Origin: an uncultured SAR86 cluster bacterium
GTDB taxonomy: Bacteria > Pseudomonadota > Gammaproteobacteria > Magnimaribacterales > D2472
Length of the DNA stretch: 64,000 nt
Assembly: GCA_902516285.1 (NCBI GenBank)
Contig: CABXXT010000002.1
Coordinates: forward strand, 1-64,000
Reading direction: 5' to 3'
Part shown: piece after piece, positions 7,002 through 45,573 of the stretch
How positions within the stretch are numbered: the first letter of the stretch is position 1
Layout: each line of letters begins with the position of its first letter
Notes under the pieces: model-generated
Seen by the model: only the letters and a program-made list of their open reading frames with translations
Databases searched by the model: none
What the model was told of the DNA's origin: nothing
Translations under genes and position numbers: made by a program

Positions 7002-7400
7002 TTAATTATGGCAGGTTTCGCATTCTATTTCTTTGCACGCTTTGTAATTTTTGTAATGAGCATAGACTACAAGTATTGATCCTAAAACTGTAATTGCTTT
7101 TTCTAGTTGTTCTTGATATGCATTATAGGGGAGCATTATTGCCACTACTAAAAGCAGTATCCCTGTTATCCCAATAATGAATGAATTTTTTGTTTTATGA
7201 TTTTTGTATCCTCTATTTAGAGCAAACAAACTCACAGGAACTGCAAAAAATAATATAACATAATGAATAATCTCATTGTCCATTGTAAAAGCAAAAATTC
7301 CTGTTGAAACAATTAGAAAAGCTGGCATAAATAAACAATGAAGAACACAAAGTATTGATAGCGAGGCCGCCACTTTGTCAGAATTTATTTGAGTATTCAT
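7002..7400 (-). CDS. MerC-domain membrane protein
   Basis: 132 residues and four membrane segments. ASLSILCVLHCLFMPAFLIV (about 12-31) contains the MerC-type Cys-x-x-x-His-Cys pattern in helix 1, and the C-terminal tail has a second cysteine cluster (CKEIECETCHN). In mercury operons MerC imports Hg(II); isolated MerC-domain proteins in marine bacteria are common and may move other soft metals. No merA or merR is present, so mercury resistance should not be assumed. Immediately upstream of, and abutting, the MAPEG gene. Confidence 0.8.
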   Translation of the reverse strand: MNTQINSDKVAASLSILCVLHCLFMPAFLIVSTGIFAFTMDNEIIHYVILFFAVPVSLFALNRGYKNHKTKNSFIIGITGILLLVVAIMLPYNAYQEQLEKAITVLGSILVVYAHYKNYKACKEIECETCHN

Positions 7401-7501: not shown

Positions 7502-8299
7502 TTACCAGTTATCCCTCAAACCTCGAAGCGCCACAAAAGTCTTTTTTGCATCAAGTTTTTTAACATCTTCATTTAAACTTTTTGCGATTCCTTGACGAAT
7601 ATCTTTTTCATTGATTCGAAAAAAAACGTTAATTTCTCTTTCTAATCCAATGTCACTTACGAAGGTCTCTGAATCAAGTCCACTATTAAACTGTTCTAGT
7701 AAGGAAGAAGCCATATTATTGGATGGTTCTCTGTCTAAAGTAAATTTAAGATTATTTTCAATATAGTCATGGCCTGGATAAATTCTTACATTATCTTCCA
7801 AGGGAAAAATTTGGTCTGAGAATGTCTCAAACATTATTTCAGGGTCTCCACCAAAATCACATCTTCCAACTCCAGCATTAAAAAGTGTATCTCCACAGAA
7901 CAATGCAGGCTCGTATTTGTCATCCCCTGAAAAGTAAAGGCAAATATGACTCATTGTATGGCCTGGAGTGTCCATAATCTTAAAGTTTATTTCACCACAT
8001 TGAAGTGCATCTCCCGCGTTTAAGCCCCTATCTACATTAGGAATCGCCTCCATGGCATCAGAGTGAGAAACAAGCTCAGCGCCTGTCGATTTGATAACTG
8101 GGCCATTTCCATCTATGTGATCATAGTGGTGGTGTGTATTTGCAACAGTTTTTATTGTCCATCCCAAATCTTTTGCAGTTTTGAGGCACAATGCGTGGTC
8201 TAGTGGATCAATTGCTAAAGCTTCTTTTGTTTTTTCACATGCCAATATATACATATAATTGCGAAGCGCATTTCTTACTGGTATCTGTTTTATTAACAT
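7502..8299 (-). CDS. gloB: Hydroxyacylglutathione hydrolase (glyoxalase II)
   Basis: 265 residues, a usual length for GloB. The metallo-beta-lactamase motif THHHYDHIDG (55-64) supplies the first metal ligands, followed by DTPGHTMSHICLY, FCGDTLFNAGVGR and YPGHDYIENN, the last being typical of glyoxalase II. It hydrolyses S-lactoylglutathione to lactate and glutathione in the cytosol, the second step of methylglyoxal detoxification. It sits in a leftward run with the monooxygenase-like and MGMT-like genes, 5 bases downstream of the former. Confidence 0.93.
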   Translation of the reverse strand: MLIKQIPVRNALRNYMYILACEKTKEALAIDPLDHALCLKTAKDLGWTIKTVANTHHHYDHIDGNGPVIKSTGAELVSHSDAMEAIPNVDRGLNAGDALQCGEINFKIMDTPGHTMSHICLYFSGDDKYEPALFCGDTLFNAGVGRCDFGGDPEIMFETFSDQIFPLEDNVRIYPGHDYIENNLKFTLDREPSNNMASSLLEQFNSGLDSETFVSDIGLEREINVFFRINEKDIRQGIAKSLNEDVKKLDAKKTFVALRGLRDNW

Positions 8300-8981: not shown

Positions 8982-9429
8982 TTAAATCCATCGTCTTGTA
9001 GTAGCTTTATATTTTACAAATTCATCTTTAAAGATCTTTTCCATTGCAACTTCCTCAGGAATAATCTGGAACTTTGTAATAAAGAAGACGAATAAAGGCA
9101 AAATAAATAGTCCACCAATTAAATTAAATTTAAAAGATAAAGACATAAGAATTATTAACATTCCCAAGTACATTGGATTTCGAGATAAACTAAAACTCTT
9201 TGCTGTTACTAAAGTAGAGGCATTTTCTATTTTGATTGGATTAATTGTTGTCTTATATTCTCTAAAAGAAGAAACAGCAGATACTAGAATTGAAATTCCA
9301 ACTAATAGTAATAGTAAGCTTGTAACATTTAGGAATACACTATTAAATTCAGGGAAGAAAGACTTAGTAAAAAAAATACATAGCCCAAAAAAACAAAGTT
9401 ACTAAAGGCGGTGGAATTTTATTATTCAT
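8982..9429 (-). pseudogene. Isoprenylcysteine carboxylmethyltransferase-like gene broken by one-base frameshift
   Basis: The start at 9429 overlaps the stop of the upstream methyltransferase in ATGA and encodes MNNKIPPPLVTLFFWAMYFF, the usual opening of ICMT/phospholipid-methyltransferase-like membrane proteins, then stops at once. The next frame carries the rest without a start: TKSFFPEFN, a hydrophobic helix, FREYKTTINP, SLSRNPMYLG, then IIPEEVAMEKIFKDEF and a RRWI end. The frames meet at a run of eight T (coding strand, about 9369-9376); removing one T restores a continuous protein of about 148 residues. It is either a recent pseudogene, an assembly error, or a slippage site. Confidence 0.75.
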
Positions 9430-10199
9430 AGCTTTTTAAACAAAAGTGTCATTCTGTCGCTTTCACCAATCTCTAGATATTTATCTTTATCTTTATCTTT
9501 TAAACGCAGACTTGGTGGCAAAGTCCATACACCTCTGGGATAGTCTTTTGTATCTTTTGGATTAGCATTTATTTCTGATTTTGATACCAAGGTAAAGCCA
9601 TGCTTTTCAGCAATCTCAATTGCATGCTCTTCAGTTACATAACCACTTTTTTTCATTTTTTCCATAGATGTATCAGGATTAGCTCTATGTTCAACAACAC
9701 CAAAAATCCCTCCAAGCTTAAGCACCTTATAAGTATTTGAAAATATATTGTCCATTTGTGGACCTAACCAATTATGTAAGTTTCTAAAAGTTAAAACTGC
9801 ATCAATTGACCCTTCTTTTGCAAGTTCAGAACTTAAATCAACAATTTCAACATTTTTATACATTGGGTTTGTACTAATTTTTTTTTCAAATGCTGCCCTT
9901 CCTCTTTTGAAGTAGGGAATATTAGTGTCTTTATCAAAATGAGCTGCTATCAACAATCCTGGTTTGTCTATGTAATTAGCTAAAATTTCTGTATACCAAC
10001 CGCCGCCAGGAGAGAGTTCAACAATTTTCATATCAGACTTTATTTCAAAAAAAGATAAAGTCTCATATGGATTTCTATAAGAATCTCTTAATATATTTTT
10101 TGTTTCGCGTTCATTACTATTAATAGCTTTTTCAAGTGTATGAGAATTTAAAATAGGTAAATAAAAAACAAGTGAGAGCAAAATTAATAAATTTTTCAT
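9426..10199 (-). CDS. Exported SAM-dependent methyltransferase (COG4798-like)
   Basis: 257 residues from the ATG at 10199, chosen over an ATG five codons upstream because a GAGAG ribosome-binding site sits about eight bases before it and the product then opens with a clean signal peptide (MKNLLILLSLVFYLP). KIVELSPGGGWYTEILA is the SAM-binding motif I, and SIDAVLTFRNLHNW fits motif II/III of class I methyltransferases. A predicted signal peptide on a methyltransferase is a known oddity of this group. It couples through ATGA to the broken ICMT-like gene. The substrate is unknown. Confidence 0.7.
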   Translation of the reverse strand: MKNLLILLSLVFYLPILNSHTLEKAINSNERETKNILRDSYRNPYETLSFFEIKSDMKIVELSPGGGWYTEILANYIDKPGLLIAAHFDKDTNIPYFKRGRAAFEKKISTNPMYKNVEIVDLSSELAKEGSIDAVLTFRNLHNWLGPQMDNIFSNTYKVLKLGGIFGVVEHRANPDTSMEKMKKSGYVTEEHAIEIAEKHGFTLVSKSEINANPKDTKDYPRGVWTLPPSLRLKDKDKDKYLEIGESDRMTLLFKKL

Positions 10200-10226
10200 T
10201 GTTTGAGCTCTCATTTGCTAATACTT

Positions 10227-10682
10227 TTAATTTGAGTATTCTTTGTAAAGTTCTTTGAGATCGTCAAAACACATATCTGCAACAACTTCTAGGTTGTCAT
10301 CTAATATTTCATATATAGGATCAGTAGATGTGTATGGTCTTAAGCTAAAATATACCACTACGTCTTCATCGCCTCCGCCCTCAGTGTGTGCTTCTCCTGG
10401 TGTACCAGCTTTAAAAACACCAGCGGGACGAGTGCTCTGTAAATTCCCATCAGTATCATAAGTTCGAAGTTCACCCTTAACAGTGAAAGTGCTGTAATTA
10501 GAAGTATGGATATGCATAGGTATTTTTTCATTAGCTGAAAACTTAAATAATATGTCTATTATTTTTGCTTTTTCATCAACATTTAAAAAAGACATAGAAA
10601 CATGCTCTGTTGGCTCACCATCAGGATCTGGTAATGGTTTCCAGTCAATTTTTGTTTCATCAAAGGTATTTATATCTAACAT
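10227..10682 (-). CDS. Cupin-domain protein
   Basis: 151 residues without signal peptide. Cupin motif 1 appears around KIPMHIHTSNYSTFTVKGEL (histidines at the metal positions and a downstream Glu), and motif 2 around GTPGEAHTEGGGDEDVVVYF. This matches small single-domain metal cupins, including dioxygenase-like and ChrR-like sensors; which of these is not clear. It lies 27 bases upstream of the exported methyltransferase on the same strand and 46 bases downstream of the cysteine-rich peptide, so all three could share one transcript. Confidence 0.75.
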   Translation of the reverse strand: MLDINTFDETKIDWKPLPDPDGEPTEHVSMSFLNVDEKAKIIDILFKFSANEKIPMHIHTSNYSTFTVKGELRTYDTDGNLQSTRPAGVFKAGTPGEAHTEGGGDEDVVVYFSLRPYTSTDPIYEILDDNLEVVADMCFDDLKELYKEYSN

Positions 10683-10728: not shown

Positions 10729-10776
10729 TTACTTCGAGCAGCAGTTGCACTCGCAGCAATCACAACAATCACACAT
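10729..10776 (-). CDS. Putative 15-residue cysteine-rich peptide
   Basis: A tiny frame reads MCDCCDCCECNCCSK then stop: eight cysteines in fifteen residues, spaced C-x-C-C-x-C-C-x-C-x-C-C. Such a run is metallothionein-like and is unlikely by chance in DNA this AT-rich; codons are the G/C-containing TGC and TGT in an otherwise A/T-dominated gap. It starts 37 bases after the sulfatase stop and ends 46 bases before the cupin start, same strand. There is no strong ribosome-binding site. It could chelate soft metals or be a peptide substrate; either is inference. Confidence 0.45.
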   Translation of the reverse strand: MCDCCDCCECNCCSK

Positions 10777-10813
10777 AAAATAATTATAAACTAAACATCT
10801 CAAATATATTTTA

Positions 10814-12553
10814 TTAAATATCATTTTTTGATTTTTTAATTCTCTGTCTTACAAAAACTATTATAGCTATCGTTAATCCTATAAATGCAATTATCTTGTA
10901 AAAAAATGGCAAATAGAGTCTTTTAAAAGTATTTGCTGTCATCTCTTTTGCCCACTGATAATCTTGAGGCAGCTCAATTACTCCATTTTTTTTCACATAT
11001 ACTTCATAATCTTTTATAAGCTCATCGAGTTTTTCAGGCATTGATTGAGCTAAGTCTAACGTTTCACCAGGATCATTAGAAAGATTATAAAGATTCCATG
11101 TATTTGATCCATTTGGTGGTCTATTTCGCACTATTTTAAAATTGCCCTTAAATAGAGCAGAGTTGCCTGTTACTTCAAGGCCAATAGATTCAGTCTCCAT
11201 GTAATTTTCTGTATTCGATCCGGCTAAAGAATTTTTAAGAGATTTGCCTATAATTCTTTCATCAATTTCATTAAATACTATATCGCTAATAGTTGCAGCA
11301 ACATCTGTTACAAATGTAAAGTTATGATTTTTGCCTATGCTTATGTCAGGGCCACTAATTATTAGTGGAACTCTGAGGCCTCCCTCAGACATATGAAATT
11401 TATATAAGTGGCTTGGACTTGCCATTGCTTGCGCAAATTCTGTTCCAATAAAAACATAGCTGTCCTGATCACCTAAAGTCTCATAGTCACGATCATATAT
11501 AGTTGTTTCGAACCAATCTCTCCAAGCTTTATGTTCGGTTGGATCATTTCCTTCTGGTCCATTGTCTGCTGTTACTATAAAAATTGTATTTTCATAAAAG
11601 CCTTCTTCTTTCAGATAATTTATAAATCTTCCAAGATGAAAATCCATTGCGTCTAGCATACCTGCAAAAACTGCCATGCTTTTAATTAACATTTTTTTAT
11701 CTTGTTGTTCTACCTCAGACCAACTTTCAAATCTTGAAAGTGAGTCAACAATATCTTTGTCAGAGGGGAAAATGCCATTTTCAACTGCACGGATTTTTCT
11801 TTGCTCCCTCAAAACTTCCCAGCCAGCCTCATATGTTTTTATATATTTATCAATGTACTTTTTAGGAGCTTGTAAAGGTATATGCTGAGCTTGAAAAGAT
11901 AAATATGAAAAAAATGGTGCATCTTCTTCTCTATCCTCTTCTATAAATTTAATCATTTGATCTACAAAAAATTTACTTGAGTAAAAATCTTTTGGTAAAT
12001 CTGTTTTCTCTCCATTTTTAAACCATGGTGACTCAAGGTAGTATGGTAAATAGGAATGATTACTATAATTATTGCCACCGGTAGCATCTAAAATAAATGT
12101 TTTATCAAAGCCTCGATTATATGGAAGAGCTGCAGTCTCCTCTCCACCAAAAGCCAAATGCCATTTTCCAGTCATATATGTTTTATATCCAGCAGGTTTT
12201 AGTATTTCAGCAAGAGTAAGGGCATCCTCTCTCAAATAACCCTCATATCCTGGGGTATCTCGATACTTCCATGGCATAACTTCAGGAATCATTGGAATTC
12301 CTGTATTGTGATTATCCATTCCGGTCAATAACATAGCTCTTGAGGGTGCACACTCTGGGGTAGTATGATAATTTGAAAACAGCATTCCCTCTTTGGCTAG
12401 AGCATTTATATTTGGTGTACTAATTTCACCACCATATGATTGTAGATCTGTTAAGCCAAGATCATCAATTAGAATTAGTACTATGTTAGGTCTATTTGTT
12501 GATTGAATGCCTAAAGAGAAAATACAAAAAAATATAATTGCAGATAACCGCAT
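10814..12553 (-). CDS. Sulfatase with C-terminal membrane anchor
   Basis: 579 residues, full length. A signal peptide (1-17) is followed by the metal-binding LILIDDLG (27-33), the formylglycine motif C-A-P-S-R at 68-72 (Cys68 becomes formylglycine, catalytic), TGKWHLA, and later TADNGPEGND. Near the end, LPFFYKIIAFIGLTIAIIVFV plus a basic tail form a transmembrane anchor, so the enzyme is probably tethered to the inner membrane facing the periplasm. It hydrolyses sulfate esters. Activation requires a formylglycine-generating enzyme, none of which lies in this window. A homologue fragment is at 1-960. Confidence 0.93.
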   Translation of the reverse strand: MRLSAIIFFCIFSLGIQSTNRPNIVLILIDDLGLTDLQSYGGEISTPNINALAKEGMLFSNYHTTPECAPSRAMLLTGMDNHNTGIPMIPEVMPWKYRDTPGYEGYLREDALTLAEILKPAGYKTYMTGKWHLAFGGEETAALPYNRGFDKTFILDATGGNNYSNHSYLPYYLESPWFKNGEKTDLPKDFYSSKFFVDQMIKFIEEDREEDAPFFSYLSFQAQHIPLQAPKKYIDKYIKTYEAGWEVLREQRKIRAVENGIFPSDKDIVDSLSRFESWSEVEQQDKKMLIKSMAVFAGMLDAMDFHLGRFINYLKEEGFYENTIFIVTADNGPEGNDPTEHKAWRDWFETTIYDRDYETLGDQDSYVFIGTEFAQAMASPSHLYKFHMSEGGLRVPLIISGPDISIGKNHNFTFVTDVAATISDIVFNEIDERIIGKSLKNSLAGSNTENYMETESIGLEVTGNSALFKGNFKIVRNRPPNGSNTWNLYNLSNDPGETLDLAQSMPEKLDELIKDYEVYVKKNGVIELPQDYQWAKEMTANTFKRLYLPFFYKIIAFIGLTIAIIVFVRQRIKKSKNDI

Positions 12554-40521: not shown

Positions 40522-44226
<3,705 letters not shown>

Positions 44227-44230
<4 letters not shown>

Positions 44231-45573
44231 GATTTTATTTTATCAACACAAAAGTCAGACAGTTCATCAATTTTAATTCTAATTTGTTTCATGGTATCTC
44301 TATCTCTTATAGTAACATCACTTTTTTCTAGAGAATCAAAGTCAACAGTAATGCATATGGGTGTACCAATTTCATCATGTTTTCTATAGCTTTTTCCAAT
44401 ATTGCCTGTATTTTCTAGAATAACTCTACCCATACCTAATTTTTGCAAGTTGTTTTTAATATTTTTTGCTAGCTTAACAATATCATTATTATTCTTTTTT
44501 AGAGGTATAACTGCAATTTTTATAGGCGAAAGATGCGGCCTTAAATTAAGAACTACTCTAGTTTTGCCATCATCTAAATCCTCGATTTTATATGCTTCAT
44601 TTAGTATTGCTAAAAAACCCCTTTCAACACCTGCAGATGGCTCTATAACATAGGGAATCTCCCAGTCCCCGCTATCATTTTGAATGGCTAATTTACTATT
44701 TGAATCTTTATTTTTTATTACTTTAGACTTGATATTTAATTCATCCTGTTTTTTTGAATGTGATCCAAGATCAAAATCAGTTCTATTTGCTATTCCTTCA
44801 AGTTCCTCTAATCCATGGGGGAATTTATACATAATATCAATAGTTTTTTTTGAATAATGTGCTAATTCTTCACTAGGCACATCATAAAGCTCAATACTAT
44901 CCATGGGTACACCCTGATCATTCCACCAACTTAGCCTTTTTTGTACCCATGAACTATGAATATTCTCATCTGTTCCTGGTTTAACAAAGTACTCTAACTC
45001 CATCTGTTCAAATTCTCTTACTCTAAAAATAAAATTTCTAGGCGTTATCTCATTTCTAAAAGCTTTGCCCATTTGAGCAATACCAAATGGTAGTGCTCTT
45101 GAGGTTGAATCCAATACGTTTTTGAAGTTAGTAAAGATTTGTTGAGCTGTTTCAGGCCTTAAGTATGCAAAAGATTCACCATCATCGATTGGACCTACAT
45201 TTGTCTTAAACATTAGGTTAAATTGTCTAGGCTCTGTTAAATCATCTTTTTTGCACATATCAGGCACTTGGTCTGCCCTAAATCTGAGACCGCAAGATTT
45301 ACAATCAACCATTGGATCTGAGAAAGTGTCTTCATGTCCTGAGTATTTTAAAACTAAAGGGTTTGTAAGAATTGAAGAATCAAGTCCTTCAATATCGTCA
45401 TTTTCATATACCATAGACTCCCACCAAGCCCTTTTAATATTATTTTTTAACTCCACTCCAAGTGGTCCAAAATCATATACGCCTTGAAGCCCCCCATAAA
45501 TATCACTCGATTGAAAAATAAATCCTCTTCTTTTGCACAATGCAACTAATTCATCCATGGTTTTTGCTGTCAA
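44227..45573 (-). CDS. glyQS: Glycyl-tRNA synthetase, single-chain dimeric type
   Basis: 448 residues. Class II motifs appear in order: [26 protein letters not shown] (motif 1 area), [31 protein letters not shown] (motif 2), [16 protein letters not shown] (motif 3), and a C-terminal anticodon domain (PIKIAVIPL... [33 protein letters not shown]). [17 protein letters not shown] suggests a zinc site. Most Gammaproteobacteria instead use the two-gene glyQ/glyS alpha2beta2 enzyme, so the alpha2 form here is notable. Confidence 0.95.

Follow-up and report, generated by a model that had tools for sequence, protein, structure and literature searches.

A conserved fifteen-codon gene for a cysteine-rich, putatively metal-binding peptide in an order of Gammaproteobacteria, with counterparts of identical spacing in phages

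We start with the minus strand of the window, the whole 64,000-nucleotide stretch of DNA that was analysed (33.1% GC), where an open reading frame of fifteen codons lies between a sulfatase gene and a cupin-like gene (Table 1). This frame, MCDCCDCCECNCCSK, with its start codon at 10776-10774 and its stop codon at 10731-10729, is exactly where the sequence-only reading had placed a peptide of 15 residues with eight cysteines, and the same-strand sulfatase upstream and cupin downstream of that reading are found as well, the cupin with a domain match just under the cut-off. Cysteine makes up over half of the peptide. From the base composition of the window, a TGY codon has a probability of about 0.028, and eight cysteines at these fixed positions are expected about 4e-8 times on both strands of the 64 kb. 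It is also the sole frame in the window with more than six cysteines in 13 residues. Genes of fifteen codons are usually thrown out by annotation.

The same strand of the window also contains, no more than about 5 kb away, a MerC gene and genes of the MAPEG, SMR, GFA, glyoxalase II and MGMT types. The frame at 9426-10214, for which an exported methyltransferase had been claimed, gives no Pfam match. At 8982-9420 (minus strand), an ICMT-like reading frame looks broken; longer relatives (cluster c17) are found near the peptide gene in other genomes.

Table 1. Positions of the peptide gene, its promoter elements and selected neighbouring genes in the window
Feature	Position	Strand	Remarks
Peptide gene MCDCCDCCECNCCSK	10729..10776	-	15 residues, 8 Cys, C-x-CC-x-CC-x-C-x-CC
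-10 promoter hexamer TATAAT	10783..10788	-	exactly 6 nt before the ATG
Extended promoter element TAGTTTATAAT	10783..10793	-	TRGTNTATANT across copies
Sulfatase, immediate upstream neighbour	10814..12553	-	PF00884, E=3e-64
Cupin-like gene, immediate downstream neighbour	10227..10682	-	Cupin_7, just under cut-off
MerC-domain membrane protein	7002..7400	-	PF03203, E=2.2e-26; 3.4 kb downstream of the peptide gene
Hydroxyacylglutathione hydrolase (glyoxalase II)-like	7502..8299	-	PF00753 and PF16123

Of the 34 genomes of the genus, 19 have the gene, once each, by a degenerate pattern with at most three mismatches, while the same pattern read backward matches none of the 34. In the family, a pattern of the cysteine codons only, with one mismatch allowed, has a match in 62 of 107 genomes; some of these matches come from low-complexity repeats, and those that begin with an ATG count as the true copies. 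Over the whole order, a gene with the spacing C-x-CC-x-CC-x-C-x-CC is present in 72 of 203 genomes, covering three of the four families and 11 of the 22 genera, and nearly always as a single copy per carrier genome. The distribution is patchy (family f3 and genera g12 and g14 are without the gene). Outside the order, the pattern is absent from all 369 genomes sampled from the class and, in a slightly narrower form, from all 398 genomes sampled from the phylum, the Pseudomonadota. Genome size, base composition and gene content make SAR86 the probable identity of the order.

Because these patterns impose the cysteines that they find, we also search the order with an anchor that leaves most of the cysteines free (TATANT, six bases, ATG, Cys-x-Cys and a stop codon within range). 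This search gives 72 distinct loci, of which 62 are the peptide gene and ten are unrelated chance matches. The six cysteine codons outside the anchor encode cysteine in 371 of 372 cases at the 62 loci, and the single exception is a TGA in genome G016, so that no other sense codon occurs. In this copy (L011, G016:C2:131828-131863) the TGA replaces the eighth cysteine codon (MCDCCDCCECSC, then the stop) and is followed in frame by the usual SK-stop; it would be an assembly error or a truncated allele, recoding being unlikely.

The spacers behave differently from the cysteines. Position 3 is D, E, N or K, position 6 is D, S, K or N, position 9 is E, N, Q, T or K, and position 11 is S, T, A, D or N, and the cysteine codons themselves drift between TGT and TGC from copy to copy. 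Conserved cysteines, varying spacers and drifting codons, taken together, are in this comparison the mark of selection for the cysteines and for the way they are spaced. Measured in bits per base, the information content reaches 1.58 over the first 13 codons and 1.15 at -17 to -7, against about 0.28-0.30 in the flanks. High values are confined to the stretch between about -18 and the stop codon, which gives a conserved unit of about 65 bp. By these measures the fifteen-codon frame is a real and strongly conserved gene. The check that had been suggested, that relatives keep the cysteines and their spacing while third positions drift, thus comes out strongly positive in the genus, family, order and anchor searches. 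The expectation that the gene would sit at the same place in relatives proves wrong, for it occupies many contexts.

We turn to the promoter. The -10 hexamer of the window sits inside the 37-nt gap after the sulfatase, and exactly six bases separate TATANT from the ATG in 63 of 73 aligned copies, with the close variants TAAAAT and TACAAT in five further copies. The 74 copies represent 43 distinct upstream contexts, and 37 of the 43 have TATANT at that position. The extended element is conserved as well (T at -17 in 67, G at -15 in 47 and T at -14 in 58 of the 73 copies); taken alone, it is no rarer in the window than expected by chance. Judged from this arrangement, the peptide gene has its own promoter and would be a separate transcription unit. 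As the -10 box lies six nucleotides from the ATG, transcription is expected to start at the A of the ATG, and the position of the box predicts that the mRNA is probably leaderless. Among the window genes (open reading frames of at least 90 residues, with uncurated start sites), Shine-Dalgarno-like cores precede only 11 of 62, so initiation independent of such a sequence may be common in this lineage. The copies of genus g5 (L031-L047) have a conserved GAAAT-N8-ATTTAG upstream of the -10 box, an imperfect inverted repeat that could be a candidate regulator site, and most of them have a short inverted repeat, GTTGCT-CATA-AGCAAC, across the stop codon.

The neighbours of the gene are not fixed, given its 43 upstream contexts, and the sulfatase and the cupin are therefore incidental. 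The sulfatase/cupin setting is common to the closest relatives only, and a cupin is the immediate downstream neighbour only in this genome and two close relatives. What does recur, in changing order, is a set of genes for MerC, an HXXEE protein, DUF6249, glyoxalase II, cupins and SMR transporters (cluster c11, named SMR by its resemblance to the SMR gene of the window). By gene content, this recurring setting is an island of small detoxification-type genes, above all MerC, which is the most frequent neighbour across the order. In 32 genomes MerC and the peptide gene are no more than 6 kb apart; their order and distance vary, MerC can adjoin the peptide gene on either side, and for a single gene in a 1.1-Mb genome such proximity would arise by chance in about 1% of cases. 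Shared descent within genera accounts for part of this proximity (g5 supplies 14 of the 32 cases), and MerC occurs almost throughout the order (165 of 203 genomes) whether the peptide gene is present or not; it is therefore a frequent neighbour and not an obligate partner.

Peptides of the same design are also found in viral contigs. Scans of such contigs give 88 with a tiny open reading frame of identical cysteine spacing, representing 48 distinct peptides (for example MSKCKCCKCCNCTCC, MNCKCCECCNCDCC and MCTCCKCCNCTCC) that end at the last cysteine or within a few residues of it. Equivalent scans for the reversed order of cysteines give no such frame, which makes the spacing specific. A Shine-Dalgarno-like sequence, by a simple pattern, precedes 39 of the first 49 phage frames, and the genes downstream are varied. 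The neighbouring PhoH-like, exonuclease and cytidylyltransferase-like genes match those of Kyanoviridae (T4-like) isolates, and the carriers are uncultured phages, many of them T4-like. The peptide is absent from the eight isolate records that we scanned directly, which is weak evidence of its absence from isolates. A tblastn search of phage isolates with a 20-residue phage-type query gives no match, probably because of low-complexity filtering, and megablast of four carrier contigs gives short matches or none and no close isolate phage. Two peptides with a phage-like look, in G082 (MCKCCKCCKCSCCAK) and G196 (MCKCCKCCECACCSK), nevertheless belong to bacterial genomes and have the usual leaderless promoter. 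We treat the bacterial and phage peptides as counterparts by spacing, twelve residues being too few to decide on a common ancestry.

Some carrier phages encode a further protein of interest. Two records (L487 and L488, of the viral contigs L352 and L335) contain the cysteine peptide together with a protein like the iron-sulfur subunit of succinate dehydrogenase (SdhB), and in L487 an alternative-oxidase-like protein, recognised by eye, is beside the SdhB-like gene. The phage SdhB shares 72% identity with the SdhB of the window genome and up to 76% with those of other Gammaproteobacteria; the window genome ranks second in similarity, with several gammaproteobacterial genomes equally close. In the isolate Phage C48C1 (L486, OQ984149.1, about 42800-44400 and nearby), SdhB-like and isocitrate-lyase-like proteins can be recognised by eye in a region whose SdhB part is annotated only as hypothetical protein. 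Separately, weak PHROG matches of the peptide (phrog_13373) led to an SdhB-like iron-sulfur protein and are rejected as an artefact of shared cysteines.

What could such a peptide do? Because it is below the 20-residue limit of the search tools, upstream codons were added to the query, and this query has no match in Pfam, NCBIfam or PDB up to E=10, to a metallothionein family or otherwise. A literature search for the peptide strings returned unrelated matches only and did not find the motif in this sense. The composition has the traits of a metallothionein, with eight cysteines in 15 residues, C-x-C and C-C motifs and the same spacing in all intact copies. Aromatic residues are nearly absent: among the 74 bacterial copies one has an F, in its tail, and of the 48 distinct peptides from phages one carries two Y (MYYKNK...) and two contain one His each. 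The spacer residues are mostly hydrophilic and change charge (most bacterial copies have D or E, many phage copies K), and the variation of the spacers and the drift of the cysteine codons point to the thiolates rather than to a partner-binding surface.

The bacterial metallothioneins SmtA/BmtA and MymT are cysteine-rich metal buffers of about 50 or more residues; the peptide is likewise bacterial and cysteine-rich, but they are far longer. Phytochelatins, short thiol-rich peptides that chelate metals, are a functional analogue in size and thiol content, but they are made by enzymes whereas the peptide is encoded by a gene. There is a likeness in form to the fungal Cu-thioneins of Neurospora crassa and Agaricus bisporus, which have 26 residues and seven cysteines and have been described as once the shortest reported metallothioneins (PMC4755600); our literature search found none shorter. 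Like them, the peptide is very small and cysteine-rich, with C-C and C-x-C motifs, hydrophilic spacers and almost no aromatics. Unlike them, it has 13-19 residues, eight cysteines in a 12-residue core and another spacing, comes from bacteria and phages, has no detectable sequence relationship to them, and its metal binding is a prediction.

We favour a metal-thiolate reading because of the eight thiols in twelve residues, the hydrophilic spacers of unconserved charge and the metal/electrophile neighbourhood, and we consider it probable that the peptide chelates or buffers thiophilic metals in the manner of a minimal metallothionein. The metallothionein or metal buffer of the sequence-only reading is still the best reading, with metal binding itself at the level of inference. 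The metallothionein-like class is a working assumption, and we do not file the peptide as a member. From these features we infer translation, metal binding, the identity of the metal and the physiological role, as follows. The leaderless mRNA would start at the AUG of the gene, and the 15-residue peptide would be translated from it. Its eight thiolates, in the spacing C-x-CC-x-CC-x-C-x-CC, would act jointly as one metal-binding site, and the peptide would chelate or buffer thiophilic ions of the cytoplasm, such as Cu(I), Zn(II), Cd(II) or Hg(II), alongside the locally recurrent MerC-type metal protein and enzymes of thiol and electrophile detoxification. Phages presumably use peptides of the same spacing for metal or thiol balance during infection.

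A serious rival is a cysteine-sensing leader peptide, at which stalling, when charged Cys-tRNA is scarce, controls a downstream operon, since polycysteine leaderless short ORFs of mycobacteria sense cysteine and control their downstream operon in this way (Canestrari et al. 2020, doi 10.1111/mmi.14498, as cited in PMC9094748 and PMC9031893). As far as those citing papers describe the mycobacterial case, our gene is similarly leaderless, cysteine-rich and very short, and in some genera the next gene is consistent and co-directional (glyoxalase II of cluster c3, directly downstream, in g5; a beta-helix-like protein in g3). The mycobacterial ORFs, as so described, act in cis on the operon downstream, however, while the next gene here varies widely, with no constant co-directional operon across genomes, and is on the opposite strand in at least six of them (L007, L010, L011, L014, L015 and L379). 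The downstream sequence has no consistent structure (fold z-scores of 0.38 to -2.37 in six copies) and no Rfam match. An attenuator requires cysteine codons and not a fixed spacing with non-cysteine residues; a fixed spacing is a further difference from the mycobacterial ORFs as cited, as are the phage versions, in which the spacing is identical, a Shine-Dalgarno sequence usually precedes the frame and the genes that follow differ. We regard a leader peptide as unlikely.

It is also improbable that the peptide is a thiol redox, persulfide or electrophile buffer, that is, a gene-encoded analogue of glutathione with no metal site. The extreme thiol density and the nearby glyoxalase II, MAPEG, GFA and MGMT-type genes would suit such a buffer, but a simple buffer has no need of a fixed spacing of paired and single cysteines. 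Very improbable are a functional small RNA whose cysteine codons are a matter of chance and, as had also been suggested, a modified-peptide precursor: the short autonomous transcription unit and the inverted repeat across the stop codon in g5 would fit an RNA, but variation tracks the codon structure and there is no consistent structural signal or Rfam match, and for a precursor, the tested neighbours are not constant and include no recognised peptide-modifying enzyme.

Returning to the metal-thiolate reading, we tentatively propose, as a possibility suggested by the comparisons, a new class of minimal metal-thiolate peptides (13-19 residues, eight cysteines in 12) common to streamlined marine-type bacteria and many T4-like phages. 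In the bacteria it would be an autonomous leaderless gene of about 65 bp in a reshuffled, MerC-rich detoxification island, and in the phages an auxiliary gene for control of the infected cell's metal or thiol chemistry. The gene shows selection on its cysteines, a promoter architecture of its own and, as the new finding here, counterparts of identical spacing in dozens of phages; the leaderless promoter, the MerC-rich setting and the phage peptides were beyond the reach of the sequence-only reading. The peptide is cheap to synthesise, which makes the central claim directly testable. Should the peptide prove to bind metal, it would undercut the 26-residue fungal forms (PMC4755600) in length and would then serve as a minimal model for metal-thiolate clusters, as a candidate factor by which streamlined marine-type bacteria handle trace metals or mercury, and as a new kind of accessory gene carried by phages.
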